A stretch of DNA of 22,006 bases from a virus. The position numbers were made by a program, and so were the translations under genes. The stretch covers positions 1 to 22,006 of IMG/VR virus record IMGVR_UViG_3300003267_000193; one strand, written 5' to 3'. Below, in pieces: positions 1,465 to 22,006 of the stretch (position 1 is the first letter of the stretch; every line of letters starts with the position of its first letter). The notes under the pieces were generated by a model. It was not told the DNA's origin. It saw nothing but the letters and a program-made list of their open reading frames with translations, and did no database searches.

Positions 1465-2175
1465 ATGCCTCGACTCCCGGTGCTCATTCGCCAGAATAAG
1501 GTTTTTGAGCTGGTCGTTGCGGGCCGGACCTATACCCAGATCTGCCAGCAACTGCACATCAGCGAGGACACGATCGCCCGCGACATGGCCGCGATCGGCG
1601 AGGAGGTGCAGCGACTCGTCCGCGAGCGCGCCGGCGAGATCGTCGCGGTGGCGCTGGCCACCTATCAGAAGGTGATTGACGAGGCCTGGCGCGAGTATTA
1701 TGCCGCCGCACAGCGCGAAAAGGACTGGTACGCCGGCCACCTCGACTTCGAACACGAAACGATCGCCACCAAGACGCTGGCGATCGAGGCCGATGAGACC
1801 GACGAAGGACGGCGAAAGCCGAACAAGGACGCTGCCGCCCGCGCTGCGATTAGCGCGCTGGCCATCGAGAGTGAGTCGCAGCCGCTGGAGGTGACCCGCA
1901 CCCGCAAGGCGGTGCGGCCCGCACTCGTGAATAGCGGCCGGCGTGAGTGGCTCCAGGTGATTATGGAGGCCACGCGCGAGATCACCGAGCTGACCGGCGT
2001 GAAGAAGCTGATTGTCGAACATAGCGGGCCGAGCGGCGGCGCAATCGAGGTAACCACTACCGCATTAGAACAGGCCGCGCGCGAGCTACAGGAATGGCGA
2101 CACCAGATGACACAGCAGTTGAGTATGCCAAATGTGCCGCCGACGCCGCCTACTTCACCGACACCTATGGAGTGA
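1465..2175 (+). CDS. terS: terminase small subunit-like protein
   Basis: 236 residues. The N terminus (residues about 10-50) is a homeodomain-like helix-turn-helix: KVFELVVAGRTYTQICQQL followed by HISEDTIARDMAAI. This resembles the DNA-recognition domain of phage small terminases, which select viral DNA for packaging. A long charged helical middle follows. The C-terminal tail is Pro/Thr-rich and its last 27 codons are shared in another frame with the large subunit. The position directly before a clear large terminase gene is the strongest support. I took the ATG at 1465 as start because the upstream extension of the frame lies in the previous gene; no good ribosome-binding site is visible. 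Confidence 0.75.
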   Translation: MPRLPVLIRQNKVFELVVAGRTYTQICQQLHISEDTIARDMAAIGEEVQRLVRERAGEIVAVALATYQKVIDEAWREYYAAAQREKDWYAGHLDFEHETIATKTLAIEADETDEGRRKPNKDAAARAAISALAIESESQPLEVTRTRKAVRPALVNSGRREWLQVIMEATREITELTGVKKLIVEHSGPSGGAIEVTTTALEQAARELQEWRHQMTQQLSMPNVPPTPPTSPTPME

Positions 2176-3566
2176 TCGACGACGCGCAGGGACACGGCGA
2201 GGGCGATGGCACGATGCCGTTCAAGCTCTGGCCCGCCCAGATCGGCGTGATGTGGCAGCTCATGGTCGAGCGGCTGATCATCATCCTCAAAGCGCGGCAG
2301 CTCGGGATTAGCTGGATCTGCTGCGCGTACGCGCTCTGGCTCTGCCTCTTTCAAGCTGGCAAGTTCGTGCTGATCTTCTCCAAAGGCCAGAACGAAGCCA
2401 ACGAGATGCTCTCGCGCATCCGCAAGCTGTATGAACGGCTTCCGGATTGGCTCAAAGCCGCCGCGCCGCAGCTCATCAAGAGCAACACGACCGAGCTGGA
2501 GTGGTCGAACGGGTCGCGCATCGAAAGCCTGCCGGCGACCAAGAGCGCCGGGCGTAGTCTCACCGCCACCCTGGTCATCTTGGATGAGGCGGCATTCCTA
2601 CTCTTCGCCAGCGAGCTCTACACGGCACTCAAACCGACGATCGACGCTGGCGGTCAGCTCATCATCCTGTCGACGGCCAACGGGATCGGCAACCTGTTTC
2701 ATCAGCTCTGGACCCGTGCAAGCGCTGGCCTCAACAAGTTCAAGACGATTTTCCTGCCCTGGTGGTCGCGGCCAGGCCGAGACGCGGCGTGGTACGCGGC
2801 GCAGCTGGCCGAGTATACCGATGGGGCGATGGTCAAGCAGGAATACCCGGCGACCGCGATCGAGGCGTTTTTAGTCAGCGGCCGCGTGCGCTTCCAGCAG
2901 GCATGGATTGCCAAGCAGGCGCCGCATCTGATTGACCCGATCGACCTTGCGCACGCGCCGGAACGCTTTCGCCCCGCGCTCGCCGCGATCGATGGACTCC
3001 TCTTCTACGCACCACCGCAGCTCGGCCGGCGCTACATCCTGGCCGCCGACGTGGCTGAGGGAACCGAGACGGGCGACTACTCGGCCGCAGTCCTGATTGA
3101 CGCCGAGTCCTGGGTCGAGCTGGCCAGCCTGCACGGGCATTGGGAGCCCGACCAGTACGCCGCGTATCTCTGGGCACTTGCACAAGTGTACGGCGCCGAG
3201 ATCGGCGTCGAACGCAATAACCACGGCCATGCGGTGCTGGTCGCACTCAAGAACCTGGGCGCGCACAAGATCGCGCTGGGCCACGATGGCAAGCGCGGAT
3301 GGCTCACGAACGCACAGACCAAGCCCCAGGCGATCGATCTCCTGGCGCAGGCGCTGCGCGATGGCTCGCTCGCCGTGCGCACGCAGGCCGCGCTCGAAGA
3401 GATGGCAATCTACCGGACCCTGAAGGATGGCGACACGGGCGCGCCGAACGGATACCACGATGATTATGTGATGGCCTGGGCGATCGCGCTGATGCTGGCC
3501 CGCCGGCCATCCACCAGCACGACCAGCAAAAGCCGCGTCGTCACCGCCGAGCAACTAGGACTCTAA
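2094..3566 (+). CDS. terL: terminase large subunit (ATPase and nuclease of DNA packaging)
   Basis: 490 residues, the usual size for the family. The ATPase domain has a deviant Walker A motif KARQLGIS (66-73), a Walker B LVILDEAAF (D164/E165) and a coupling motif LSTANG. The C-terminal RNase H-like nuclease shows its acidic residues in AADVAEGTETGDY (near D319), GVERNNHG (near E373) and YHDDYVMAWAIAL (near D456/D457). The protein pumps DNA into the prohead through the portal and cuts the concatemer. Its start lies 82 bases inside the small-subunit gene, and AGGA sits almost against the ATG, so translational coupling is likely. The stop overlaps the portal start (TAATG). Confidence 0.95.
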   Translation: MATPDDTAVEYAKCAADAAYFTDTYGVIDDAQGHGEGDGTMPFKLWPAQIGVMWQLMVERLIIILKARQLGISWICCAYALWLCLFQAGKFVLIFSKGQNEANEMLSRIRKLYERLPDWLKAAAPQLIKSNTTELEWSNGSRIESLPATKSAGRSLTATLVILDEAAFLLFASELYTALKPTIDAGGQLIILSTANGIGNLFHQLWTRASAGLNKFKTIFLPWWSRPGRDAAWYAAQLAEYTDGAMVKQEYPATAIEAFLVSGRVRFQQAWIAKQAPHLIDPIDLAHAPERFRPALAAIDGLLFYAPPQLGRRYILAADVAEGTETGDYSAAVLIDAESWVELASLHGHWEPDQYAAYLWALAQVYGAEIGVERNNHGHAVLVALKNLGAHKIALGHDGKRGWLTNAQTKPQAIDLLAQALRDGSLAVRTQAALEEMAIYRTLKDGDTGAPNGYHDDYVMAWAIALMLARRPSTSTTSKSRVVTAEQLGL

Positions 3567-5157: not shown

Positions 5158-5453
5158 TCATCCACGCCAAGCAGGCCACCGTCGAATTCTCCAACGACGG
5201 CGAGATGTGGGAGCCCTTACCCGCCTTCGATGGCTTCATCGAACGCGAGTGCAAGCCGATCAAGGTGCTCTACACCGAGCCCGCCGAGCCCTTCACGATT
5301 GAGATCGAGTTCAAGGCTCCCAGTCGATCGAAGATTAATCGCCTCTACCGAACACTGCGCCGCCTAACCGGCTATGGTCCGGCCGGCAAGCGCGGTACAT
5401 CCCCACGACGCGCCGCGCGCCGGCGCCACCATCGGAAGCTCAAGCGACGCTAA
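5154..5453 (+). CDS. small hypothetical protein with basic C-terminal tail
   Basis: 99 residues. The first 65 are a likely beta-rich domain (MIIHAKQATVEFSNDGEMWE...KVLYTEPAEPFTIEIEFKAP). The last 30 are strongly basic (RRAARRRHHRKLKRR) and could bind nucleic acid. It is coupled to the preceding gene by ATGA. A noncoding stretch of 226 bases follows. The function is not recognised; a minor head protein or packaging accessory would fit the location. Confidence 0.6.
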   Translation: MIIHAKQATVEFSNDGEMWEPLPAFDGFIERECKPIKVLYTEPAEPFTIEIEFKAPSRSKINRLYRTLRRLTGYGPAGKRGTSPRRAARRRHHRKLKRR

Positions 5454-5457
5454 TCAT

Positions 5458-5538
5458 CGCGGCGCCCTGCTAGCGGGCACCAGGATAGACCAGGAAGCGC
5501 ACGACCTGGGGCTGGTTCGAATCCGGCAGCCGCGACCA
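5458..5538 (+). other. tRNA-like element 1 (degenerate)
   Basis: The 3' half looks like a tRNA: T-arm GCTGG-TTCGAAT-CCGGC (5511-5527, five pairs with one G-T), then AGCCGCG (5528-5534), a discriminator A and an encoded CCA (5536-5538). CGCGGCG at 5458-5464 pairs with six of the seven acceptor bases. The middle does not fold as a normal D-arm and anticodon arm: CCAGG and CCTGG pair around a ten-base loop that lacks U33. It is therefore a relic or a tRNA-like structure, not a confident functional tRNA. Confidence 0.4.
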
Positions 5539-5560
5539 AACGTTACACCGTACTTTCCAT

Positions 5561-5656
5561 CGCGGCGGCTGCACTCCGTCCTGCGGAGTCACTGGCGGCC
5601 AATAGGTAAAGCCGGGTATGTCTCGGCGAAGTGGTTCGAATCCGCGGCCGCGCCCA
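5561..5656 (+). other. tRNA-like element 2 (atypical, possibly D-armless)
   Basis: The T-arm GTGG-TTCGAAT-CCGC (5631-5645) is followed by GGCCGCG, C and an encoded CCA (5654-5656). Two 5' partners are possible for the acceptor strand. GGCGGCC at 5594-5600 (six of seven pairs) gives a compact 60-base form with no D-stem, a ten-base linker and an anticodon arm GCCGG-GTATGTC-TCGGC (5611-5627). CGCGGCG at 5561-5567 gives a 93-base form that also encloses the hairpin ACTCCG-TCCTG-CGGAGT (5573-5589). Neither is canonical, since base 37 would be T in the compact form. The element shares its 5' and 3' ends with element 1. Confidence 0.35.
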
Positions 5657-5679
5657 TCCCCCCTACATCGGAGCACCCC

Positions 5680-8358
5680 ATGAAGAAATCCAAGATCGCC
5701 AAAGGCCAGCCGCTCGCCGAGCTGGCGAAAGGCTCCCTCGAATATACCTCAACGATGATCCACCAGGCATTCCGGTCGCAATTCCGCGCCGACGATATGT
5801 ACTGGAACTGGATGATCTGCGAGATCTTCGCCGAGTACGTGATCGTCTATGACTCGCAGCTGCCGCCGGATGAATACTGGCGCGTGCATTACACCACCGC
5901 CCAGACGAGCTATCAATTCGCGTCCCGCGATGCGTGGGAATTGGTCGAGCTGGCCTACCAATCGGCCGCACGCGACGAGGCGATCCGCGTCCACCGCGCG
6001 CCGAGTATTGCGGCCAGTTTCACTACAAGCGGCGACGGCATCCCGCTGGTCGAAAGCCTCGATCGTACCCGCCTCGAACTCTGCGAGGCGCAGGCCGGCA
6101 AACCGCGCCGAATTCGAGCGCGCGGCATGACCGCCGATATCATCAACCGCAATAATCGGCGCTATGCAAGTGAGGTGCTACGCGCGGCCGTCGCCGAGGC
6201 GCAACCCCTGGCCGAGCGCGGCGAGCTGCTGGCCGAGTCAGGGCACCCCACCGATAAGCCGAGCGGCACGGCCGATATCTTAGAATCGCTCGTCCGCTGG
6301 GATTCGATCGTCTTCGACGGCGGCGAGGTGCTGCTGGAAGGTGAGATCATCCCCACATCCAAAGGCCGCGACCTGATCACGATCATGGAAGCCAAGGTCT
6401 ACCCGCGACTCAGCCAGCGCGCCTACGGCAGGGCCGAGCAGGTCGAAGAGGGCGGCCGGCGCTTCCTGGATATCAAGGAACTCCACATCACCGGCTACGA
6501 CCTGGTGATGGACCCCGGCGACCCCACTGCCGCCACCCTGGCATTCGAATCCTTCAACCCACAACCTATCACAGGAGATCCCCCCACTATGGACCGTCTG
6601 ACCCTAGAAGCCCTGCGCACCGAGTATCCCGAGCTGGTGGCGCAGATCGTCGCTGAAAGCAATGCCGCGCGCCGCGCGGAGCTGGAATCGGAGTTGGAAG
6701 CGCAGCGCCAGGAGAAGGCGCGCGAGCAGGAGATCATCCAGGCGCGCGAGCGCACGCTACGCGAGTCGCTGGGTCTCGGCGAGACCGACGACCTGGCCGC
6801 AGCCATCGAGCGCCAGAACACCGAATTGCAGCGCTTGCAGGAAGCCGAGCAGGCCCGCGCCGTCGCGGCCTACATCGCCGAGGAGTGCGGCAAGATCAGG
6901 TATGCCGAGATCCTCAAGCCGCAATTCGCCAAGCGCGTCGAGAACGCTCACGCCAAGACGATCGAGGAAGCCAAGCAGGCGATCGTGGCGGCCCGCGCCG
7001 AGTACGACGCGCTGCAGGCGAGCATCGAACTGCACGCGCGCGGCCGCGGCCAGCTCTCGATCCTCGGCCCCGTGCTGGAGTCGGAGCTGGGCGTGCCGGA
7101 GTTCGCGCGGGCCAGCTACGAGCTGACCGAATCGCTCATCCGCCACGGCCAGGCCGAGCCGCGCAACCTGCGCAAGCCATCGAATATTAACGAGCGCTTC
7201 ACGGTGCAATACCTGGAGCGGTTCGACAGCGCCTACCGCCACCACCTGGCCAACGAGGCGCGGCTGTTCAACGAGGCCGAGCAGACCAGCGATCTCAACC
7301 TGCCCTACTCGGTCATGCGCACGATCATCGCCGAGGCGCTGCCCGAGCTGGTCGCCCTGTCGATCTTCGACGTGCAGATGGTCGACATGGCCCCAACCAC
7401 CAATATCTGGTTCGAGAATTACGCGGCCGAGTCGGGCGCGACCGGCAGCGTTACCGATGAGGTCGTGACCGCCGCGCTCAACACCTGGGTGAACCTGGCC
7501 AACGCGCATCTCGATCCCGGCTCGGTCGTCCTGACCAACTCGGGCGCGACCGTCACGTACACCGAGGGCACCGATTACGTGGTGGATTACCTGGGCGGCC
7601 GCCTCATGGCGATCGCGACGATCACCAACGGCCAGTCGCTCAAGATCGACTACACCTACCAGGCCATGCGCCGCGGCGAGATGGCCGCGATCAAGCGCGG
7701 CAAGAACCAGCTGACCAGCAAGTCGCTGACCATCGCGGCCGATCGCCTGGCCGTTGAACTCTCGACCGAGTCGATCCAGTTCAGCCGGGCGGCGCTGGGC
7801 TACGACGCCCGCGCGCGGCTGCTGGCGCGACTCGTGCGCCAGATCCAGAACAAGATCGACGGCGGGCTGTTCTACCTGGCCCTGGCCGCCGCACTGCAAG
7901 TCGCGTCCAACAGCGGCGGCACCTGGACGGCCGCGAGCGATGATCCGGCGCTGCTGGCCAAGTACATCGGCGTGGCGAAGGTCAAGATCGCCAACCGCAA
8001 CTACGAGCCAACCGCCGTGCTGATGAGCAAGACCAACTCGGATCGCCTGGCGAACTGGGACGGCTACACGCAGGCGGGTTCGCGCGTCGATGCCGATCTC
8101 AACAGCGCGGGCTACTCCGGGCGGGTCAAAGGCTTGCCCGTCTTCGATACCACGAACTTCACCGACGGCTACGTGCTGCCGATCAACCGCGAGGTCGTGC
8201 TGTATCGCATCGCCCAGCCCATGCAGATCAAGGGACCGATCCCATCCTTCGACTTCTCGGCTGGCCAGGTCGTCGCCGGCGAGCAGTACTACGTCGAAGA
8301 GTTCAACGGCGCCGAGGCGCCCGTGCCGCAGAAGGCCGCGAGCGTCAAGATCGCCTAA
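5680..8358 (+). CDS. prohead protease - scaffold - major capsid protein fusion
   Basis: 892 residues in one uninterrupted frame. Residues about 145-290 look like a T4 gp21-type (S77) prohead protease: NRNNRRYASEVL, then SGHP with H189, SQRAYG with S245 as likely nucleophile, and ITGYDLVMDP. Residues about 304-470 are a charged coiled coil (EAQRQEKAREQEIIQARERT) typical of scaffold or delta domains. Residues about 480-892 fit an HK97-fold major capsid protein, with LPYSVMRTIIAEALPELV and a beta-rich insertion (VTYTEGTDYVVDYLGG). The ATG at 5680 has GGAG nine bases upstream; the frame is open further upstream by chance. The protease would mature the shell after assembly. The main uncertainty is whether the whole fusion or mainly a shorter internal product is made. 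Confidence 0.88.
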   Translation: MKKSKIAKGQPLAELAKGSLEYTSTMIHQAFRSQFRADDMYWNWMICEIFAEYVIVYDSQLPPDEYWRVHYTTAQTSYQFASRDAWELVELAYQSAARDEAIRVHRAPSIAASFTTSGDGIPLVESLDRTRLELCEAQAGKPRRIRARGMTADIINRNNRRYASEVLRAAVAEAQPLAERGELLAESGHPTDKPSGTADILESLVRWDSIVFDGGEVLLEGEIIPTSKGRDLITIMEAKVYPRLSQRAYGRAEQVEEGGRRFLDIKELHITGYDLVMDPGDPTAATLAFESFNPQPITGDPPTMDRLTLEALRTEYPELVAQIVAESNAARRAELESELEAQRQEKAREQEIIQARERTLRESLGLGETDDLAAAIERQNTELQRLQEAEQARAVAAYIAEECGKIRYAEILKPQFAKRVENAHAKTIEEAKQAIVAARAEYDALQASIELHARGRGQLSILGPVLESELGVPEFARASYELTESLIRHGQAEPRNLRKPSNINERFTVQYLERFDSAYRHHLANEARLFNEAEQTSDLNLPYSVMRTIIAEALPELVALSIFDVQMVDMAPTTNIWFENYAAESGATGSVTDEVVTAALNTWVNLANAHLDPGSVVLTNSGATVTYTEGTDYVVDYLGGRLMAIATITNGQSLKIDYTYQAMRRGEMAAIKRGKNQLTSKSLTIAADRLAVELSTESIQFSRAALGYDARARLLARLVRQIQNKIDGGLFYLALAAALQVASNSGGTWTAASDDPALLAKYIGVAKVKIANRNYEPTAVLMSKTNSDRLANWDGYTQAGSRVDADLNSAGYSGRVKGLPVFDTTNFTDGYVLPINREVVLYRIAQPMQIKGPIPSFDFSAGQVVAGEQYYVEEFNGAEAPVPQKAASVKIA
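6573..6591 (+). promoter_or_regulatory. internal Shine-Dalgarno and ATG at the protease/scaffold junction
   Basis: AGGAG at 6573-6577 precedes an in-frame ATG at 6589 (codon 304) by 11 bases. The C-rich spacer resembles that of the separate gene at 18320 (AAGGAG, C-rich spacer, ATG). The site falls exactly where the protease ends and the coiled coil begins. Confidence 0.6.
6589..8358 (+). CDS. predicted internally started scaffold - major capsid protein
   Basis: Translation from the internal ATG would give 589 residues, starting MDRLTLEALRTEYPELVAQI: a coiled-coil scaffold followed by the HK97-fold capsid domain, without the protease. This would let the phage make many capsid subunits per protease, as lambda does for scaffold Nu3 inside protease C. 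The support is the well-placed AGGAG and the domain boundary. A protease site between scaffold and capsid is likely near residues 470-485, where acidic stretches such as VLESELGVPEF occur, but I cannot fix the cut. Confidence 0.55.
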   Translation: MDRLTLEALRTEYPELVAQIVAESNAARRAELESELEAQRQEKAREQEIIQARERTLRESLGLGETDDLAAAIERQNTELQRLQEAEQARAVAAYIAEECGKIRYAEILKPQFAKRVENAHAKTIEEAKQAIVAARAEYDALQASIELHARGRGQLSILGPVLESELGVPEFARASYELTESLIRHGQAEPRNLRKPSNINERFTVQYLERFDSAYRHHLANEARLFNEAEQTSDLNLPYSVMRTIIAEALPELVALSIFDVQMVDMAPTTNIWFENYAAESGATGSVTDEVVTAALNTWVNLANAHLDPGSVVLTNSGATVTYTEGTDYVVDYLGGRLMAIATITNGQSLKIDYTYQAMRRGEMAAIKRGKNQLTSKSLTIAADRLAVELSTESIQFSRAALGYDARARLLARLVRQIQNKIDGGLFYLALAAALQVASNSGGTWTAASDDPALLAKYIGVAKVKIANRNYEPTAVLMSKTNSDRLANWDGYTQAGSRVDADLNSAGYSGRVKGLPVFDTTNFTDGYVLPINREVVLYRIAQPMQIKGPIPSFDFSAGQVVAGEQYYVEEFNGAEAPVPQKAASVKIA

Positions 8359-12794: not shown

Positions 12795-12807
12795 GGAGGT
12801 CGGCATG
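12793..12807 (+). promoter_or_regulatory. strong Shine-Dalgarno of the repeat protein gene
   Basis: AAGGAGGT (12793-12800) is a near-perfect match to the 16S rRNA tail, four bases before the ATG at 12805, and overlaps the TAA of the previous gene. It fixes the start and suggests high translation with reinitiation. Confidence 0.8.
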
Positions 12808-15030
12808 GCGACAGCGCTCTACCTCACGAGCATCAGTTCGGATGTCAACCCGGGCAGCGAGGACGAGCGCCTGGCGCAGCTGACGCGCGGTAGCGGCGTC
12901 ACATCCTCGGATGCGACCGCGACCGTCGCCGGACCAACCGCTGGCGTGCAGGCGCAGCTGAGCGGCGCGGGTCTCACCTGGCTCTCCAACCCGCTGAACG
13001 GTGTCACGATCAGCGGGACGATTACCTTTAACATCTGGGGTTCCGAGTCGGCCGCGCAGGCCAATGCCGGCTTCGATGTGCTCGTCGAGCGCTGCAATGC
13101 CTCGGGCGTCGTGCAATCCACGATCCTGCGCTCGGAGCGCGGCACCGAGATGGGCACCACGTCCAGCGCGAACACCTGGACCGGCACGCCGACCTCGACC
13201 ACGCTGAGTACGAACGATCGCATCAAGATCACCGTGTTCGCCAATGACGCCGGCGGCACGATGACGGCCAGTAGCCGGACCTTTACGCTGCGGTTCAATG
13301 GCTCCAGCAGCGGCGCCGACGGCGATACCTTCGTTCAGTTCACCGAGACGCTGACCGAGAACCTGGCGACACGGACCGGCGATCTGAGCCAATCCCAAGC
13401 GAATCAGACGCTCAATCCCAACGGAGCCGGCGCCGTGGCGATCGCCGGTTCCCTTTCGGCCAGCCAGGCGGCCGAGACGCTGAGCGCGACGATCGAGTCT
13501 CCCTGGCAGGCACCGACCGCTTTCACCGCGCAACTGGGCACGCCGTATAGCGTGCTCGCCGGGATTGTCCTGGGCAGCGATCTCGATACCGGCGCGCGGA
13601 TCGGATCGCTCACGCAGACCCAGGCCGCCGAGACACTGAGCGCGGCCGGTGCGGTGGCCCTTGCCGGCTCCCTTTCGATCACCCAGGCCGCCGAGACACT
13701 GAGCGCGGCCGGCGTCGTCGGCGCAGCCGGCATCATTGGCGATGCCAGTATCACCCAGGCGGCCGAGACACTGAGCGGGGCCGGCGCGGCCCTGATTGCA
13801 GGAAGCGCCGCGCCAAGCCAGGCCGCCGAGATGCTGAGCGCGGCCGGCGCCGTGGCCCTGGTCGGCTCCCTTTCGACGACCCAGGCCGCCGAGACCCTGA
13901 GCGCCAGCGGCAGTACGACGACCAACGGCACCTATCGCGGGTCGTTCGGCTACCAGGACGCACGCACCTATCAAGGCACGGCCAGCAGTATCACCGGGAG
14001 TGCCACGCCGAGCCAGGCGGCCGAGACGCTGAGCGCGGCCGGTGCGGTGCTGATTGCAGGAAGCGCCGCGCCAACCCAGGCCGCGCAGACCCTTGCCGCC
14101 ACGGCGACCGGCGCTATCGCCGGTTCCCTTTCGAGCACCCAGGCGGCCGAGACGCTCAGCGCCAGCGGCACGAACCCGATCGCCGGCGCCCTCGCACAAA
14201 CCCAGGCAGCGCAGACCCTTGCCGCCAGCGCTGCGGTCGCCCTGGTCGGCTCCCTCACGAAGACCCAGGCCGCCGAGACGTTGAGCGCGGCCGGGAGCAC
14301 TGGATCGGGCACCGGCACCTATCGCACGGCAGTGGGCTACCGGGCGGCGGTCAATTACCTCTCGGGCGCAAGCGCGATCGTCGGTACCCTCTCGACCACC
14401 CAGGCGGCCGAGACGCTGAGCGCGGCCGCAACGCACCCGGTGAGCGGCGCCCTGGCGAAGACCCAGGCCGCCGAGACACTGAGCGCGGCCGGCGCGGTCA
14501 GCGGCGCCACCGGCATGTACCGATCGGCGTACGGCTACCGCGACACCCTTTCCTATCGCGGCAGCACGGCAGCCACGATCGGAACGCTGGCGAGCAGCCA
14601 GGCCGCCGAGATCCTGAGCGCCAGCGGCCGAGTCGCGATCGCCGGCGTCCTCTCGACCAGCCAGGCCGCCGAGACACTGAGCGCAGCGGCGATCCATCCG
14701 ATCGTCGGCGCACTCGCAGCCACCCAGGATGCCGAGACGCTGAGCGCCAGCGGCAGCAGCCTCGCCATCCGTACCGGCACACTGGCCGCCATCCAGGATG
14801 CCGAGACACTGAGCGCGACCGGCCTGATCGCGGCCACCGTGCGCGCCCGGCTCCACGGCCGCACCGTTGTCGAGACGGTCATGCGTGGGACGGCCAGAGT
14901 GGAGACCCGGCTGCACGGCGCCGCCCACCGATCGGTCACGCGCATGAGCGCCAGCGCCACCCCCGCCACCTTCCTGCACGGCCGCACCACTCGATCCGCG
15001 ACTCTCACCGGTACGGCGCAAAGGACATAG
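12805..15030 (+). CDS. large repeat-built fibre-like structural protein
   Basis: 741 residues in three parts. Residues 1-192 are a globular beta-rich head domain (GVTISGTITFNIWGSES, DVLVERCNASGVVQ, RIKITVFANDAGGTM). Residues about 193-672 hold 18 copies of a unit of roughly 21 residues with core TQAAETLSAAGAV. Three of the copies carry an inserted Tyr/Arg-rich cassette of the type GTYRGSFGYQDARTYQG. Residues about 673-741 are a basic tail of ten-residue repeats (LHGRT, MRGTA, LHGAA). The repeats suggest a long fibrous stalk, perhaps a beta-solenoid. The gene follows the spike and fibre genes. Similar ATQA..TLSA repeats occur in other phage proteins, but I know of no structure. Confidence 0.7.
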   Translation: MATALYLTSISSDVNPGSEDERLAQLTRGSGVTSSDATATVAGPTAGVQAQLSGAGLTWLSNPLNGVTISGTITFNIWGSESAAQANAGFDVLVERCNASGVVQSTILRSERGTEMGTTSSANTWTGTPTSTTLSTNDRIKITVFANDAGGTMTASSRTFTLRFNGSSSGADGDTFVQFTETLTENLATRTGDLSQSQANQTLNPNGAGAVAIAGSLSASQAAETLSATIESPWQAPTAFTAQLGTPYSVLAGIVLGSDLDTGARIGSLTQTQAAETLSAAGAVALAGSLSITQAAETLSAAGVVGAAGIIGDASITQAAETLSGAGAALIAGSAAPSQAAEMLSAAGAVALVGSLSTTQAAETLSASGSTTTNGTYRGSFGYQDARTYQGTASSITGSATPSQAAETLSAAGAVLIAGSAAPTQAAQTLAATATGAIAGSLSSTQAAETLSASGTNPIAGALAQTQAAQTLAASAAVALVGSLTKTQAAETLSAAGSTGSGTGTYRTAVGYRAAVNYLSGASAIVGTLSTTQAAETLSAAATHPVSGALAKTQAAETLSAAGAVSGATGMYRSAYGYRDTLSYRGSTAATIGTLASSQAAEILSASGRVAIAGVLSTSQAAETLSAAAIHPIVGALAATQDAETLSASGSSLAIRTGTLAAIQDAETLSATGLIAATVRARLHGRTVVETVMRGTARVETRLHGAAHRSVTRMSASATPATFLHGRTTRSATLTGTAQRT
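13381..14820 (+). repeat. coding tandem repeat array, 18 units of about 63 bp
   Basis: Units of about 63 bases, many sharing the core ACCCAGGCCGCCGAGACNCT or close variants, are arranged head to tail. The array is broken by longer units at about residues 230-265, 373-390, 502-520 and 568-585 of the protein. High DNA identity between units makes copy-number change by recombination likely, and also makes short-read assembly errors possible here. Confidence 0.85.
14827..15027 (+). repeat. coding ten-residue repeats at the C terminus
   Basis: The last 65-70 residues of the repeat protein read as about six degenerate ten-residue units beginning LHGRT, MRGTA, LHGAA, MSASA, LHGRT and LTGTA, each followed by Arg/Thr/Val-rich residues. 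The alternation is different from the upstream 21-residue units, so this is a second repeat class in the same protein. Confidence 0.6.
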
Positions 15031-15619: not shown

Positions 15620-16264
15620 ATGAGCAGCAGCCTCACCAGCATGGCCGATATCCTGGCCGCCGACGTGCCGCCCTACGGCAACGTGCCCACGACCGAGCAC
15701 TATCTGCGATCGGTCAAGGATGCCGTGGCCGATCTCAGCCGGCGCGCGGCGCTGATCAAGATCGCCACACTCGCGATCGTGAGCGGCACGGCCAGCTATG
15801 ACCTACCGGCCGACTTCCTGCGCCTCATCCGGCTCGATACGGCCAATGGCTACGGCTCCAACGGCGTGCTGTATAGCGCCGAGGGGCTGGTGCCGCTCAC
15901 GCCCTGGTCGAGCCAGAGCTGCGAGCGCACCACGATCGCGCACGGGGCGATCACCTTCACGCCGACGCCGGCCTACACGCTCGATCGGCAACTTACCTAT
16001 GCGGCCGCCTACGCCCTCGACGGCGACGACTATGCCGATCTGGATGACGACCTGGCGCAGATCGCACTCCTCAAAGCGCGGGCGATCTGCCTGCTGCTAC
16101 AAGCCGCCAAGGCGGCCCGCGATGCCTGGGTATCCGAGCTTGGCCCCGAGAAGCGCGACAAGACCAAGCAGGCGCCGGAACTGCGCGCCGAGGCCGCCGA
16201 ATTCGAGCGGCACTACCTCGCCGCACTCAACGCACGCAGTGGCCCATACGGGAGTCGATCCTGA
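15620..16264 (+). CDS. head-tail adaptor (connector) protein
   Basis: 214 residues. The segment VSGTASYDLPADFLRLIRLD (about residues 54-73) is typical of phage adaptor proteins that dock on the portal ring. The following beta-rich middle and the helical C terminus (LAQIALLKARAICLLLQAAK) fit as well. It is the first of four consecutive connector genes, ordered adaptor, stopper, gp10-like and tail terminator as in HK97-like phages. The stop overlaps the next start by one base. The family assignment rests on pattern and order, not on a search. Confidence 0.7.
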   Translation: MSSSLTSMADILAADVPPYGNVPTTEHYLRSVKDAVADLSRRAALIKIATLAIVSGTASYDLPADFLRLIRLDTANGYGSNGVLYSAEGLVPLTPWSSQSCERTTIAHGAITFTPTPAYTLDRQLTYAAAYALDGDDYADLDDDLAQIALLKARAICLLLQAAKAARDAWVSELGPEKRDKTKQAPELRAEAAEFERHYLAALNARSGPYGSRS

Positions 16265-16638
16265 TGCCAGCGCTGAATGCAGAAGACCGCGCTGCACTGG
16301 CGGCCGATGCCGCCGAGATGATCGCCGATGGCGAGCTCGTCACGCTGGCCCGCGCGCCAAAAGGCATGCGCAATCGCGGCGATGCCGAGGCCTTCGCCAC
16401 GAACGTGCCCATGCAAATCTGGTCCACGAATGGCAACAGCGATCCGCGCATCCTGGAAGCTGTACCGGCGATTGGCGGCCAGCGCGTCGCCGCCGTCGGC
16501 TATGCGTCGGCCGGCACCGACCTGCAGGCGGGCGATGAAATCTGGACCGCGAGCAAACGATATAGCGTGCTGGGCGTGGGAATCTGGCGCGGCAGCGTGG
16601 CGGCCGCGCTCAATGAGATTGTGCCGAGGGCATCGTGA
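16264..16638 (+). CDS. head closure (stopper) protein
   Basis: 124 residues. The C-terminal half has the usual small barrel pattern of SPP1 gp16-like stoppers: QIWSTNGNSDPRILEAVPA, AGDEIWTASKRYSVLGVGIW and RGSVAAALNEI. The protein closes the portal channel after packaging and receives the tail. It shares one base with the adaptor stop and its TGA overlaps the GTG of the next gene. Confidence 0.7.
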   Translation: MPALNAEDRAALAADAAEMIADGELVTLARAPKGMRNRGDAEAFATNVPMQIWSTNGNSDPRILEAVPAIGGQRVAAVGYASAGTDLQAGDEIWTASKRYSVLGVGIWRGSVAAALNEIVPRAS

Positions 16639-17027
16639 CAGGGCTGAAAGTTGAAATCCTGCACCTGCCCGAGGTGCAGGCCGCGCTCAGAGCCAAGGCC
16701 GATCGCCTGACCCCGGCGCTCAATGATGCCGCGACGGTCGGCCGCCGGCTGCTCGTCGAGCAGTTGACCAACTACCCGCCGCCCCGGCAGGGCCAGCGCT
16801 ATGTACGAACCTTCCGCTTGAAACGTGGATGGGAGCGCGCCACGCCGATCACCGGCGGCCGCGGCTTCCAGCTGATCAACCCGGTCGAGTATGCGCCGGC
16901 GGTGCAGGGCACCAACCAGCGCCCCGCCTTCCGTGGCCGTTGGGAGAATGTGGCCAGTATCGCCAAGCGCATGCAGGCCGAAGTCATCGCCGCGTATGTG
17001 CAGGCGGTCAAGCAGGCGGTTGAATGA
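16635..17027 (+). CDS. HK97 gp10-like tail completion protein
   Basis: 130 residues from a GTG start that overlaps the stopper stop as GTGA, with GAGGG four bases upstream. The N terminus (VEILHLPEVQAALRAKADRL) and the middle (YVRTFRLKRGWERA, EYAPAVQGTNQRP, RGRWENVASIAKRMQAEVIAA) follow the gp10 pattern, with the YAxxV(Q/H)G motif near residue 88. These proteins act at the head-tail interface. The end overlaps the next gene as ATGA. Confidence 0.75.
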   Translation: MTGLKVEILHLPEVQAALRAKADRLTPALNDAATVGRRLLVEQLTNYPPPRQGQRYVRTFRLKRGWERATPITGGRGFQLINPVEYAPAVQGTNQRPAFRGRWENVASIAKRMQAEVIAAYVQAVKQAVE

Positions 17028-17482
17028 GCGTCAATCCCACCACGATCCGCACCACCCTTGCCGAGCTCTTGAGAGCGGGCTGCCCCGACGCCATGCGCGT
17101 CTATCCCGACGAGCCCGGCGACCTGGGCAAGAAGAGCCCGATCATCGTCCTCTCACGGCGCGGCCGCGGTCGGAATAAGCAGGGCCAGGCGCTGCGCACC
17201 TTCCAGACCAAGATCAAGCTCTGGCTCGATGTGTATGTGGCCGCGCCGGATGGCCGCGACTACACCGACGCCGAGGCGGCCGCGCTGCTGGACACCATGG
17301 CCTACCAGATCGACGCGGTGATCGACCAGTACCAGACCGCGATCGATAGCGAGACGCAGGCCAAGCTCTGGCAGGCGATCGAATACGACATCGATAGCGA
17401 GATCGAGTTCGGCATCTTCAACGACGATGGCGTGCCGCGCTGGCGCGAGCACATGGGCCTGGTCGTGACGGTCTTCGCCTAG
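17024..17482 (+). CDS. tail terminator protein
   Basis: 152 residues. Size, position after the gp10-like gene and pattern suit the tail terminator (gpU or SPP1 gp17 type): helical start (TTIRTTLAELLRAGCPDAMR), beta strands (IIVLSRRGRG, FQTKIKLWLDVYVAAPD) and a final strand HMGLVVTVFA. It caps the tail tube at its head end. Its TAG overlaps the antisense gene stop in the palindrome CTAG. The assignment is from order and secondary-structure pattern. Confidence 0.65.
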   Translation: MSVNPTTIRTTLAELLRAGCPDAMRVYPDEPGDLGKKSPIIVLSRRGRGRNKQGQALRTFQTKIKLWLDVYVAAPDGRDYTDAEAAALLDTMAYQIDAVIDQYQTAIDSETQAKLWQAIEYDIDSEIEFGIFNDDGVPRWREHMGLVVTVFA

Positions 17483-17824
17483 TTCAGATCCTCATGCAGC
17501 GCGGGCGGCTGCGCGGTATACAACGCCAACCCAGGATTCGGGATGAACAGCGAAGGCGTGCGCAACGACTCAGGAGCGGCCGCCTGCTCCGCACAGCGCC
17601 GCAGCAACGCCGGTATCTCGATCGGCGCCTCACGCACAAAGCGATCGAGGATCGGCTGCGCCTGGAGCAATGGACGGCCCATCACCCCACCGACGACCAG
17701 ATGATCGATCACCGTCAGCAGCGCCCGGTATTGCAGCGGCGGCGGCAGCTCACCCAAGCCCCCCCAGGAGCGCCAGATCGATCGGTCGGAGTTCTTCCCA
17801 GCGGATCCGTGGAACCCTCGGCAT
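17479..17824 (-). CDS. antisense tail-assembly-chaperone-like gene, frame break at a G7 run
   Basis: A strong AGGAGGG (17835-17829) fixes the minus-strand start at 17824, giving MPRVPRIRWEELRPIDLALL and then a TGA at 17752-17750 after 24 codons. In the +1 frame, entered at or near the G7 run (17765-17759), translation goes on as GELPPPLQYRALLTVIDHLV to a TAG at 17479, about 114 residues in total. The segment VIDHLVVGGVMGRP matches VLDRLVVGGILGRP of the chaperone gene at 19001, so the two look homologous. The break may be a programmed +1 shift at GGG-TGA, a real mutation, or a homopolymer error. The function of the product is unknown. Confidence 0.55.
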
Positions 17825-17828
17825 GCAT

Positions 17829-17854
17829 CCCTCCTGTTTCTATCAATCCTACCA
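17829..17854 (-). promoter_or_regulatory. minus-strand promoter and ribosome-binding site
   Basis: On the minus strand an extended -10, TGG-TAGGAT (17854-17846), is followed by AGGAGGG (17835-17829), with ATG at 17824 four bases further on. No convincing -35 is seen, which is allowed for extended -10 promoters. This gives the antisense gene its own expression signals. Confidence 0.4.
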
Positions 17855-17908: not shown

Positions 17909-18256
17909 ATGGCTCGTGCAGCACTCACCAAGCAGACCATCACGCACGCCGGCCAGGCGCTGACCTACACCGCCCCGACCGGCGCTGGCGCCAACAACGG
18001 CTGGACCTGGGCCAACACCGGCGCCGAGATCCTCGAAATCAAGAATACCGACACGGTCACCCACACGCTCACGCTCAAGGCCAGCGCTTCGCTCGCCGGC
18101 ATCGCGCTGCAAGATCAGACCGTCACCGTCCCGGCCGCCGCGGCCGGCGCCCCCGGCTACGTCAAGGTTAAGCTGGCGACGGTCGCGTTCGGCGCGACCG
18201 GCAACGCCGATATCGATGTGGTTACCGGCATCACGGCCGCGCTGATCAGCGCGTAG
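17909..18256 (+). CDS. small Ig-like structural protein before the tail tube
   Basis: 115 residues, beta-rich: ITHAGQALTYTAPTGAGANN, AEILEIKNTDTVTHTLTLKA, DQTVTVPAAAAGAPGYVKVK and a final ADIDVVTGITAALIS. The pattern suggests one Ig-like or beta-sandwich domain of a virion surface protein. AAGGAG lies eight bases before the ATG. It sits just before the probable tail tube gene, so a tail or head decoration role is likely. A 63-base gap without a gene follows. Confidence 0.6.
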   Translation: MARAALTKQTITHAGQALTYTAPTGAGANNGWTWANTGAEILEIKNTDTVTHTLTLKASASLAGIALQDQTVTVPAAAAGAPGYVKVKLATVAFGATGNADIDVVTGITAALISA

Positions 18257-18319: not shown

Positions 18320-18769
18320 ATGACTATCGTTAGTGGTTTTGGTTCGGCCGTCGATGCCTACGTGGAGATCTCCACGAACGGTACGAGCTGGACGAACATC
18401 AGCGGCGCGACCAACGCGCTCGAACCCGATCCCGTCAAGCGCAAGTTTGGCGAGGCCTATGTGTTCGGCGCTGCCGATCCCGGCGTCACCGTCGGCAAGA
18501 ACGAGTCGGTCGAAATCAAGATGAGCGTGTTATTCACGCAGGGCGCCAGCGATGCCTTCGCGACGGTCAAGGCGGCCTTCGATAACAAGACCGATGTGTA
18601 CTTCCGCTGGACGCCGTTCGGCAATGTGGCAGGCAACGCCCGCTTCACGACCGGCGCCGGCAAGGTGCTCGAATTCATGTATCCGAAGATCAACGCGGAA
18701 TCGGCCGACGCGATTATGTGCGAGCTGAAGATCCGCGCGGCCGGTATCACCCAGGACGCAACCCCATAA
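18320..18769 (+). CDS. major tail tube protein (probable)
   Basis: 149 residues. The order tail terminator, tail tube, chaperone pair, tape measure places the tube here, and the sequence fits: a beta-rich start (GSAVDAYVEISTNGTSWTNI), a long central region (VTVGKNESVEIKMSVLFTQG, ASDAFATVKAAFDNKTDVYF) and an ending strand (ADAIMCELKIRAAGITQ). Hexamers of this protein stack to form the tail tube. AAGGAG nine bases before the ATG suggests strong expression. It ends before a structured gap that may lower expression of the next genes. Confidence 0.75.
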   Translation: MTIVSGFGSAVDAYVEISTNGTSWTNISGATNALEPDPVKRKFGEAYVFGAADPGVTVGKNESVEIKMSVLFTQGASDAFATVKAAFDNKTDVYFRWTPFGNVAGNARFTTGAGKVLEFMYPKINAESADAIMCELKIRAAGITQDATP

Positions 18770-18776
18770 GAACGAT

Positions 18777-18804
18777 GAAGGCTGAAGGCTGAAGGCTGAA
18801 GGCG
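18777..18804 (+). repeat. heptanucleotide tandem repeat GAAGGCT x4
   Basis: Three exact copies of GAAGGCT and a fourth ending in G, starting eight bases after the tail tube stop. GATGAAGG at the left edge (18774-18781) is exactly complementary to CCTTCATC (18837-18844) in the next heptamer array, so the two arrays can pair. Confidence 0.8.
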
Positions 18805-18831
18805 CATTGCGAGCGCTGTACTCTTAGCCTC

Positions 18832-18859
18832 TTCATCCTTCATCCTTCACTGTTCATCC
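18832..18859 (+). repeat. heptanucleotide tandem repeat TTCATCC x4
   Basis: TTCATCC, TTCATCC, TTCACTG, TTCATCC, in exact seven-base phase. It is close to the reverse complement of the GAAGGCT array upstream (six of seven bases). Confidence 0.75.
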
Positions 18860-18864
18860 TTTCC

Positions 18865-18902
18865 CCAGGCGTCTCCGCCTGGCGCCGGGAACCCGCCCGG
18901 CG
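18865..18902 (+). other. two adjacent stem-loops after the tail tube gene
   Basis: CCAGGCG-TCTC-CGCCTGG (18865-18882, 7 bp) is followed with no gap by CGCCGGG-(6 bases)-CCCGGCG (18883-18902, 7 bp). No T-run follows. They may slow transcription or protect the abundant tail tube message from 3' decay. Confidence 0.65.
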
Positions 18903-18917
18903 TGGGCGCTCGCTATA

Positions 18918-18950
18918 CCTGGGCGGGTCGATCGATCGCATCCGCCCAGG
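18918..18950 (+). other. 9-bp stem-loop before the chaperone gene
   Basis: CCTGGGCGG (18918-18926) and CCGCCCAGG (18942-18950) pair perfectly around a 15-base loop that contains the palindrome TCGATCGATCGA-like core. With the two hairpins before it, it forms a three-hairpin cluster in the 231-base gap. Confidence 0.65.
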
Positions 18951-18964
18951 ACCCGATCCCTCGA

Positions 18965-18992
18965 TTCTTCATTCTTCATTCACCATTCTAGG
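18965..18992 (+). repeat. heptanucleotide tandem repeat TTCTTCA x4 running into the ribosome-binding site
   Basis: TTCTTCA, TTCTTCA, TTCACCA, TTCTAGG in seven-base phase. The last unit runs into AGGAGG (18990-18995), the ribosome-binding site of the chaperone gene at 19001. Confidence 0.65.
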
Positions 18993-19000
18993 AGGTTCCC

Positions 19001-19306
19001 ATGCCCCGTGGACGCAAACCCAAGACCACCCAGGCGATCACCGCCACGCCCGCGACCGTTGTTCTGTCCGCCCCGATCGTCGTCGATCGCTCGCGCCTGA
19101 CGCTCGGCGATATGCTGACCTTCTCGAAACTGAGCACCCTCGGCCAGGCCGACGCAGCTGCGCAGAATGCCGCGATGATTGAGATCCTGCCGGTCCTCGA
19201 TCGCCTGGTCGTCGGCGGCATCCTGGGCCGCCCCGCGACCGAGCTGACCGCGATCATGGAAGCGGTCGGCCAGCAGCTCAACGAGACGGCAAACCCAAAG
19301 ATCTAA
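19001..19306 (+). CDS. tail assembly chaperone (G protein)
   Basis: 101 residues in the zero frame, with AGGAGG five bases before the ATG. The N terminus is basic and low in complexity; residues about 45-90 (LTLGDMLTFSKLSTLGQADA, then VLDRLVVGGILGRP) form the helical core. Position just before the tape measure, small size and the frameshift signals at its 3' end identify it as the equivalent of lambda gpG. It would coat the tape measure during tail assembly and is absent from the finished virion. It shares its core with the antisense gene at 17479-17824. Confidence 0.8.
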   Translation: MPRGRKPKTTQAITATPATVVLSAPIVVDRSRLTLGDMLTFSKLSTLGQADAAAQNAAMIEILPVLDRLVVGGILGRPATELTAIMEAVGQQLNETANPKI

Positions 19307-19349
19307 GGCTGCGGATGATGAAACACTTCATGGGCCGACATCCGCAGCC
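19291..19349 (+). promoter_or_regulatory. programmed -1 frameshift site with stem-loop
   Basis: In the zero frame the codons read A AAC CCA AAG, so both A-AAC-CCA (19291-19297) and C-CCA-AAG (19294-19300) are in-phase X-XXY-YYZ slippery heptamers. A six-base spacer, which contains the zero-frame TAA (19304-19306), leads to the stem GGCTGCGGATG (19307-19317) with CATCCGCAGCC (19339-19349): eleven perfect pairs. The 21-base loop can itself form ATGAA-ACAC-TTCAT. Spacing and geometry match known stimulators of -1 shifts. Confidence 0.85.
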
Positions 19350-19512
19350 CTATGAATACCTCACGCTCATCCTGTGCCGGGATATCTACCACTGCACCCC
19401 CAGCGAGCTCGCCCGGCAAGACCCACAGGTCATCCTGGCGCACCTCACCGCGCTGGATGTCGAATCCGACTACCGCAGCATGCACAACGCCCCCAAAGTT
19501 GATGCCGCGTAG
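19300..19512 (+). CDS. T extension of the tail assembly chaperone (reached by -1 frameshift)
   Basis: After the shift translation continues DLRLRMMKHFMGRHPQPYEY and on through LTLILCRDIYHCTPSELARQ to a TAG at 19512, adding 70 residues. The full GT product would have about 170 residues. The frame is open through the slippery site with no stop, as a fusion requires. An ATG at 19315 lies within this frame, but it has no ribosome-binding site and sits inside the stem, so independent translation is less likely. In lambda the T part recruits the tail tube protein to the tape measure. Confidence 0.8.
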   Translation, partial: DLRLRMMKHFMGRHPQPYEYLTLILCRDIYHCTPSELARQDPQVILAHLTALDVESDYRSMHNAPKVDAA

Positions 19513-19705: not shown

Positions 19706-22006
19706 ATGGCTGATACGCAGATCCCCATAGTTGTCACCGTCATCGACAACGCATCGGGCGCGCTGAACCAAATTTCGACCGGCGCCCTGCGCTCCTTGGG
19801 CGATGCCGCGGTCAACATTGCCGGCCAGGCCGTTCAGGCCATGGCCGGTTTTGGTGCGTCCAGCCTGCAGGTCGCGGCCGACTTCGAAAAGGCGACCAGC
19901 ACCTTCGCCTCGGTGGCCGGCGGCGCCTTGAAGGATGCCGGCTTCACGCTCGACGACGTGAAGAACAAGGCGCTGGAGCTTGGCGCGCAAACCCAGTTCA
20001 GCGCAGCCCAGGCCCAGGAGGCGATGATCAACCTGGCCAAGGGTGGCGTGCCGGTCGCCGACATTATGGGCAAGGCGACCGATGCAACGCTGGCCCTGGC
20101 AGCGGCCGGCGATGTCGAGCTCGCGCCGGCCGCCGATATCGTGGCCAAGCAGCTGGGCGTGTGGGCCGATACCGGCGTGCAGGCGGCCGATGTCGCCAAC
20201 CTCATGGCCCAGGCCGCCAATGCCAGTACGGTCGATGTGCAGGAACTGGCGCTTGGTCTCTCGGCGGTCGGCGGCGTCGCCAAAGTCTCGGGCGTGTCCT
20301 TCCAAGACCTCACGCAGACCATGGCGCTGCTGGCGCCCGGGTTCTCGAGTGCATCGGATGCCGGCACCAGCTTCAAGACGATGCTCCTGGCGCTGCAAGG
20401 CAAATCGTCCGACGCCGTTGGCGTCATGAAGCAACTCAATATCATCTCGACCGACTGGGCATCGGTCGCCGGCGATCTCGGGATTGCCTTCGATGGCTCG
20501 GCGGCGAGCCTGGCCAAGGTCAAGGATGCGGCCATGCAACAGGTCGCGGTCCAATCGAAGGCCGCGATCGGGACCAAGGACTGGCAGAAGGCATGGGACG
20601 CCTTCCTGGGTGACTTCCAGACGAATGCTTTTTATGACCAATCCGGTCAGATGAAAAGCATGGATCAGGTCGCGCAGATTCTCCAGAACTCCCTCGCCGG
20701 CCTATCGGAAGAACAAAAGACGGCCGCGCTCAATACGATGTTCGGCACCGATGCGTATCGGGCCGCCGCGTTCATCGCGCAGGCTGGAGCGGCCGGCTTC
20801 CATCAGATGGCCGACTCTATGACCGCCGCCGGGAGCGCTGCCGAGCAGGCCGCCGTCCGGAATCAGAATTTCAAATTTGCGTGGGATTCGCTGCTCGGGA
20901 CCATCGAGACGATCCAGATCGTGATCGGCTCGGCGCTGCTACCCATCCTCACGCAGCTGACCAACGATGTCATTATCCCGGCCGCCAATGGGGTCTTGAC
21001 CTTCGCGCAATCGATCCTCTCAGCCAGCGATCCGATGGCCACGCTGACCGCCAGTATCAACAGTGCGGTGCCCGGGTTCGATTCCTTCGTTACCAGTATC
21101 ACGCAGATCATCAGCCAGGCCGCTGCGTTCCTCTCGACTGGTAATAATCTCGAAGCCGTGCTGGCCGGTATCGGCGTGGCGATCGCGGTCGGTGTGCTGC
21201 CGCCACTGGTCGCCGCTGCTGCTTCCTTCCTGGCCCTGGTCGCTCCGATCGTCGCCCTGATCGCGGTGGGCGCCCTCCTCTATAGCGCCTGGACCAATAA
21301 CTTCTTAGGTATCCAGGAGATTATCGGCAGCATCGTCGGCGTAGTCACGTCGATCATCTCACCGATTATCAGCACCTTCACTGCGATCGCATCCTTCGTT
21401 AGCGCCAATCTGATGCCGATCCTGGCCGGGGTCGGTACCGTCGTCGCCGGGCTGCTCATCCCGGCGCTGGCCTCGATCGCCGCGTACATCGCATTCGCTG
21501 CGCCGATCATCGCCGGGTTGTTCGCCGGGTGGGTGGTCGGCGCCGTCTCTGCTGCCGCCGCCACGCTGGCCGCCGCCGCGCCGCTGCTCCTGATTGGCGC
21601 CGCCGTCGCGCTCCTGTTCGCCGCCTGGCAAAATAACTGGTTCGGCATCCGCGATATCGTCGCCGCCGTCTGGGCCTATCTCCAGCCAATCTTCGCCCAG
21701 ATCGGCGTGTTCTTCACGTCCACACTACCCGCCGCGTTCTTCTCCGCCGTGGCCGCCGTGCAGCAATTCGCTGCACAGGTGCAGGCCGGCTGGGGCGTCC
21801 TGGTCGCCGGCGTCATGCAGTTCGTCGCCTCAGTGCAGGCCGGTTGGGGTGTGGTCGTCGCGGGTATCAGTTCCTTCATTTCCTCGGTGCAGGCGGGATG
21901 GGGCGTGGTCATCGACGGCGCCTCGGCGGCCTGGGCGGCAGTGGTTGCGGTCGTGCAGGGCGCGATCGCTGGCCTGGTCGGGATCTGGAATCAGATTACG
22001 GCTGGC
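19706..22006 (+). CDS. tail tape measure protein (3' end outside window)
   Basis: The frame stays open for 767 codons to the right edge. It begins MADTQIPIVVTVIDNASGAL and has the TP901-type core at residues about 60-115 (FEKATSTFASVAGG, LDDVKNKALELGAQTQFSAA, QAQEAMINLAKGG), followed by helical repeats (VWADTGVQAADVANLMAQAA). Two long hydrophobic stretches lie at about residues 487-531 and 569-642, each ending in AW-x-NN-x-x-GI. Three copies of an 18-residue unit starting VQAGWGV follow from residue 692. The protein sets tail length and is ejected with the DNA. Start is ATG 19706; a weak start fits low-copy expression. Confidence 0.92.
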   Translation, partial: MADTQIPIVVTVIDNASGALNQISTGALRSLGDAAVNIAGQAVQAMAGFGASSLQVAADFEKATSTFASVAGGALKDAGFTLDDVKNKALELGAQTQFSAAQAQEAMINLAKGGVPVADIMGKATDATLALAAAGDVELAPAADIVAKQLGVWADTGVQAADVANLMAQAANASTVDVQELALGLSAVGGVAKVSGVSFQDLTQTMALLAPGFSSASDAGTSFKTMLLALQGKSSDAVGVMKQLNIISTDWASVAGDLGIAFDGSAASLAKVKDAAMQQVAVQSKAAIGTKDWQKAWDAFLGDFQTNAFYDQSGQMKSMDQVAQILQNSLAGLSEEQKTAALNTMFGTDAYRAAAFIAQAGAAGFHQMADSMTAAGSAAEQAAVRNQNFKFAWDSLLGTIETIQIVIGSALLPILTQLTNDVIIPAANGVLTFAQSILSASDPMATLTASINSAVPGFDSFVTSITQIISQAAAFLSTGNNLEAVLAGIGVAIAVGVLPPLVAAAASFLALVAPIVALIAVGALLYSAWTNNFLGIQEIIGSIVGVVTSIISPIISTFTAIASFVSANLMPILAGVGTVVAGLLIPALASIAAYIAFAAPIIAGLFAGWVVGAVSAAAATLAAAAPLLLIGAAVALLFAAWQNNWFGIRDIVAAVWAYLQPIFAQIGVFFTSTLPAAFFSAVAAVQQFAAQVQAGWGVLVAGVMQFVASVQAGWGVVVAGISSFISSVQAGWGVVIDGASAAWAAVVAVVQGAIAGLVGIWNQITAG
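21779..21940 (+). repeat. 54-bp repeats inside the tape measure gene
   Basis: GTGCAGGC recurs at 21779, 21833 and 21887, exactly 54 bases apart, coding for VQAGWGVLVAG, VQAGWGVVVAG and VQAGWGVVIDG. Repeats of this kind with a regular Trp are common in tape measure proteins and can change tail length if copies are gained or lost. Confidence 0.75.

Follow-up and report, generated by a model that had tools for sequence, protein, structure and literature searches.

We propose, with a probability of about one half for the reading as a whole, that the tail operon of this virus contains a real minus-strand gene between the genes for the tail terminator and a small tail protein, and that its product is related to the G part of the tail assembly chaperone but lacks a T part. 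In the present copy its reading frame is interrupted near the start, at a run of seven G residues. The window analysed here covers the whole of a single metagenomic IMG/VR virus record, which is 22,006 bases long.

On the plus strand, a head-to-tail and tail operon extends from 15.6 kb to the end of the window. It begins with an adaptor gene (SU10_adaptor match), which is followed by a gene at 16264, a neck-type gene at 16635 and a gene of the tail terminator or head-completion type (17024-17482). The latter has weak family matches and a homologue in the phage contig L004, which carries the same operon without the antisense gene. Further downstream are the genes for a small tail protein (17909-18256; phrog_16194, E 2.7e-7) and a candidate major tail protein (18320-18769; 34% identity to the L004 gene at the equivalent position), the sense tail assembly chaperone with its G part (19001-19306) and T part (19294-19512), and the tape measure gene starting at 19708. 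No plausible plus-strand gene fits the gap between 17482 and 17909. The minus-strand gene, which is divergent from the small tail protein gene, occupies this gap; all else in the tail operon runs one way. The antisense gene is located between the tail terminator and the small tail protein, and not, like the sense chaperone, between the major tail protein and the tape measure.

Several other features of the window were recorded. The terminase (2094-3566) shows 68% identity to a terminase of Herpetosiphon aurantiacus DSM 785 (L015) and of contig L005, and 63% identity to one of L016, a contig binned as Isosphaeraceae. These identities point to a Chloroflexota host, the virus being probably a phage of Chloroflexota-type bacteria. 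The gene at 12805-15030 encodes 741 aa with a QAAETLSA-type repeat in many copies and has an AGGAGG start. Judged by its look, the open frame of 994 aa at 5374-8358 may combine a prohead protease-like first half with a capsid-like second half. The spacer upstream of the sense chaperone (18770-19000) is non-coding and contains the short tandem repeats GAAGGCTGAAGGCTGAAGGC and CTTCATCCTTCATCC.

The original prediction described a minus-strand gene with its own ribosome-binding site, the frame of which breaks after 24 codons and is then open in +1, and we found the sequence to be as described. The Shine-Dalgarno sequence AGGAGG at 17835-17830 is located 5 nt before the ATG at 17824-17822, so that the start reads AGGAGG-GATGC-ATG (17835-17822, minus strand); the spacing is the same as that of the sense chaperone at 19001. 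The zero-frame part (17750-17824, minus strand) consists of 24 codons beginning with ATG (MPRVPRIRWEELRPIDLALLGGLG) and a TGA at 17752-17750. It breaks in the context CTG GGG GGG CTT GGG TGA, which includes the G7 run (17765-17759). The +1-frame part (17479-17751, minus strand) holds the chaperone-like core (17712-17671) and stays open until a TAG at 17481-17479. This stop and that of the convergent tail-terminator gene, also TAG, overlap in the sequence CTAG. The joined protein has 114 aa, and no T-like sequence follows its stop on the minus strand. We found no consensus promoter or terminator for this gene, the promoter consensus being that of sigma-70, which may not be the one used by the host. 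An unbroken alternative, the ORF with a GTG start at 17943-17479, was rejected: it is without a good Shine-Dalgarno sequence, crosses the start of the gene at 17909 and does not include the helix-1 motif discussed below.

The sense chaperone contains a -1 slip heptamer, C_CCA_AAG, at 19294-19300, through which the T part with the family motif D[IV]YHCTP is entered. L004 has the sequence CCCAAAAAAC (5210-5230) at the equivalent place, and in many relatives GGGAAAC or CCCAAAA is found immediately 5' of the stop. The T part is common to at least 94 viral stretches (window 19294-19512; L101-L180). In these it is preceded by at least three unrelated-looking types of G part (DSKLTIGDL; VQGEGSW...WNWxDD; two-domain IYDIDAIRVDR), and the presence of several G-part types before a shared T part suggests that G parts have been swapped in this family. 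The sense G and GT proteins had no match in PHROG, Pfam or NCBIfam, the T piece alone reached phrog_9001 with E 0.096 in PHROGs, and neither PDB sequence searches nor Foldseek with the sense model revealed a relative.

The homology between the antisense protein and the sense chaperone was also part of the original prediction, and it is supported by the following data. The antisense core VIDHLVVGGVMGRP (17712-17671) aligns with VLDRLVVGGILGRP at 19193-19234 in the sense gene. Local alignment of the two proteins gave a score of 71, which was reached by none of 2000 shuffles (mean 27, sd 4.5). This pairwise similarity is confined to the 14-residue core, while the flanks are at shuffle level. At the DNA level, seven of the 11 differences within the core are at third codon positions.

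To go beyond the pair, we aligned the T part of the window with that of L004, and the T part alone then retrieved 80 contigs, in which the ORFs upstream of T include G chaperones of the window type. An independent profile was built from 17 G relatives, with the window sequence and L004 left out. When applied to all six frames of the window, it gave the sense chaperone 43 bits and, next in rank, the joined antisense protein 11.6 bits (E 0.0084 for Z=500), above the best of 5000 shuffles (7.7 bits). The only further six-frame segment to pass E 10 was the +1-frame part itself. In the reciprocal direction, phmmer with the antisense protein against 17,449 segments of about 90 loci returned the G chaperone of L133 as the top match (E 0.0021). 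Searches of PHROGs, Pfam and NCBIfam yielded no family for the antisense protein. The homology to G-type chaperones is real but modest, and it is weak in absolute score.

The zero-frame part seems to belong to the same protein. With it included, the profile gave 11.6 bits instead of 9.2, and its residues 7-23, IRWEELRPIDLALLGGL, resemble the helix-1 motif of the family (shuffle p 0.027), although this match is weak when taken alone, since equally high scores were obtained by 22 of 815 further pieces of 37 residues from the window. When this DNA is read in +1, the motif is not matched. The helices predicted for the antisense protein (9-21, 28-44 and 50-65) and for the sense protein (35-46, 52-69 and 79-97) are in the same order, both at low-to-moderate confidence (AlphaFold pLDDT of 45, which is poor, and of 67, respectively).

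Could the frame nevertheless be open by chance, in DNA that is non-coding or decayed, and its match of 14 residues be fortuitous? The length of the ORF is uninformative in this respect, because the window is GC-rich and has many long shadow ORFs, and the antisense frame differs in codon preference from the sense genes of the phage. A log-odds test based on phage codons did not separate coding and shadow frames for this gene. On the other hand, the profile match and the reciprocal match to G chaperones, the Shine-Dalgarno sequence and start, a codon-position GC of 0.74/0.45/0.79, which is the pattern of a coding frame, and the third-position pattern of differences in the core speak against a spurious frame. 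Counting both strands, the window has only three occurrences of the motif AGGAGG-N3..10-ATG, versus about 1.2 expected by chance; besides the antisense gene, they mark the starts of two real genes, the sense chaperone and the 741-aa gene. The four-fold sites of the antisense frame have 45 G and 14 C on the minus strand, and those of the sense genes 1272 C and 884 G; the plus-strand C excess is seen in every sense gene. The G excess at the third bases of the antisense frame fits a minus-strand gene that took on the local strand composition. We consider it quite unlikely that the frame is not a gene.

Relatives of the antisense gene were searched for at several levels. No orthologue was found in IMG/VR, in genome contigs of 84,980 species or among named phages, by scans that mostly reach close relatives. 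A DNA pattern allowing other lengths of the G run retrieved no second record, and no second chaperone copy, antisense or unbroken, was seen in about 90 related loci. In a survey of the plus-strand gaps of 66 related tail operons, including that of the window, no credible antisense gene was detected, but this survey was crude and missed the one in the window itself. Finally, a profile of three chaperones had only two matches in 400 Chloroflexota genomes, both inside unrelated genes.

The evidence for the reading frame switches somewhere from about residue 16 to about residue 26. This stretch includes the G7 run, which is longer than every other homopolymer, of whatever base, in the 22-kb window. 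Runs of seven G are cited as sites of indels and of low-level slippage (PMC5009743). Since the break is at the longest homopolymer, an ordinary indel is favoured, and most probably the frame was broken by a one-base change in the length of the run rather than being shifted in a programmed manner. Such a change would break the frame in the present copy, and therefore the full-length protein would not be made except by rare slippage. The broken frame may then represent a recent relic, the OFF or ON version of a homopolymer switch, or a wrong run length in the consensus.

The original prediction regarded GGG-TGA as a plausible site for a +1 slip. With a programmed +1 ribosomal frameshift of the kind used by the RF2 gene prfB, the full protein would be made in regulated amounts: the G run would act as an internal Shine-Dalgarno sequence, the ribosome would stall at UGA, and the glycine tRNA in the P-site would move from GGG to GGU. 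The string GGGGGGG CTT GGG TGA, present once in the window, has the prfB spacing of a G-rich run, 3 nt, the P-site codon and UGA, and its UGA is codon 25, compared to codon 26 in E. coli prfB (PMC12421855, PMC5009743). The pattern G6-N6-TGA, expected 0.2 times per window, was seen once, at the antisense gene, and +1 shifts are used by structural genes of phages such as Listeria PSA (PMC5009743). However, the site has GGGU instead of the nearly universal CUUU and UGAG instead of UGAC (PMC12421855), chance alone should give a looser prfB-like pattern about three times per window, no homologue was found that would show conservation of a shift site, and the coincidence with the longest homopolymer favours an indel. 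The local layout is thus suggestive, but the proposed slip has no support beyond it, and we regard programmed frameshifting as rather unlikely. It is also unlikely that the gene is real and its frame intact in nature, with the length of the G run being wrong in the contig consensus. The origin of the window from a single metagenomic virus record and the coincidence of the break with the longest homopolymer would agree with such an artefact, but short-read platforms seldom miscall 7-base runs, and no second record was found.

What could be the role of a minus-strand chaperone relative at this place? In lambda, gpG coats the tape measure and gpGT recruits tube subunits, and their ratio of approximately 30:1 matters (PMC5009743). 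In the noncontiguous operons of staphylococcal phages, nested genes on the opposite strand show reciprocal expression (PMC11087260), and Tai and Tab are prophage proteins described as blocking tail assembly (PMC11364771). The antisense gene, as an opposite-strand gene nested in one operon, has the arrangement of a noncontiguous operon. We infer that the antisense protein is a chaperone paralogue which, as gpG does, could attach to the tape measure or to tail proteins. Its synthesis from the minus strand would take place while the late operon is silent and, following the logic of noncontiguous operons, would be shut off by convergent late transcription. Being G-like and T-less, it could occupy sites on the tape measure without recruiting tube protein. 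With this timing of expression, it could act as a decoy which disturbs the tail assembly of competing phages, or it could tune the balance between G and GT. We read the product as a chaperone paralogue that lacks T and is encoded in the manner of a noncontiguous operon. The three precedents combined make it a possible tail-assembly decoy; this function is a conjecture, for which the promoter scan offered no support. That a T-less mimic is made by a prfB-like programmed +1 shift and directed against the tails of competing phages appears very improbable to us.

The original prediction further held that an antisense copy of a tail chaperone inside a tail operon was not known to have been described, and in the literature searched we likewise found no description of a chaperone paralogue reversed in this way. 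Immunity switches are now connected with antisense genes that lie within phage operons, and phages are known to attack one another at the stage of tail assembly. A chaperone paralogue reversed among the tail genes would be an obvious candidate for interference of this kind. The arrangement is unusual, but with only one copy, and that a broken one, it is a lead and not a demonstrated system.

Among the known systems, the G-T chaperones of lambda are similar in that the antisense product is small, predicted to be helical and related to the G part, and the sense copy of the window has the classic -1 arrangement (C_CCA_AAG) into a T part. In contrast to the lambda type, the antisense gene is reversed, is located upstream of the tail tube genes and has no T part, and its frame change is +1 and near the N-terminus instead of -1 and C-terminal. 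With prfB (PMC12421855), the antisense site shares the G-rich run, the 3-nt spacer, the following codon and an early UGA at about codon 25; it differs by GGGU in place of CUUU, by UGAG in place of UGAC, and by not being part of an RF2 gene. The tha/ith pair of Staphylococcus aureus phages (PMC11087260) also has a single opposite-strand gene nested in an operon. There, however, the nested gene inhibits a defence protein, belongs to the lysogeny region and has been shown to be transcribed, while the antisense gene is a relative of a structural chaperone in a tail operon. Tai targets central tail fibre or tail needle proteins, and in the available part of that report (PMC11364771) it is not described as a chaperone relative. 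The likeness to Tai and Tab is by outcome alone: a prophage-borne protein which, as proposed here, would disturb the tail assembly of other phages.
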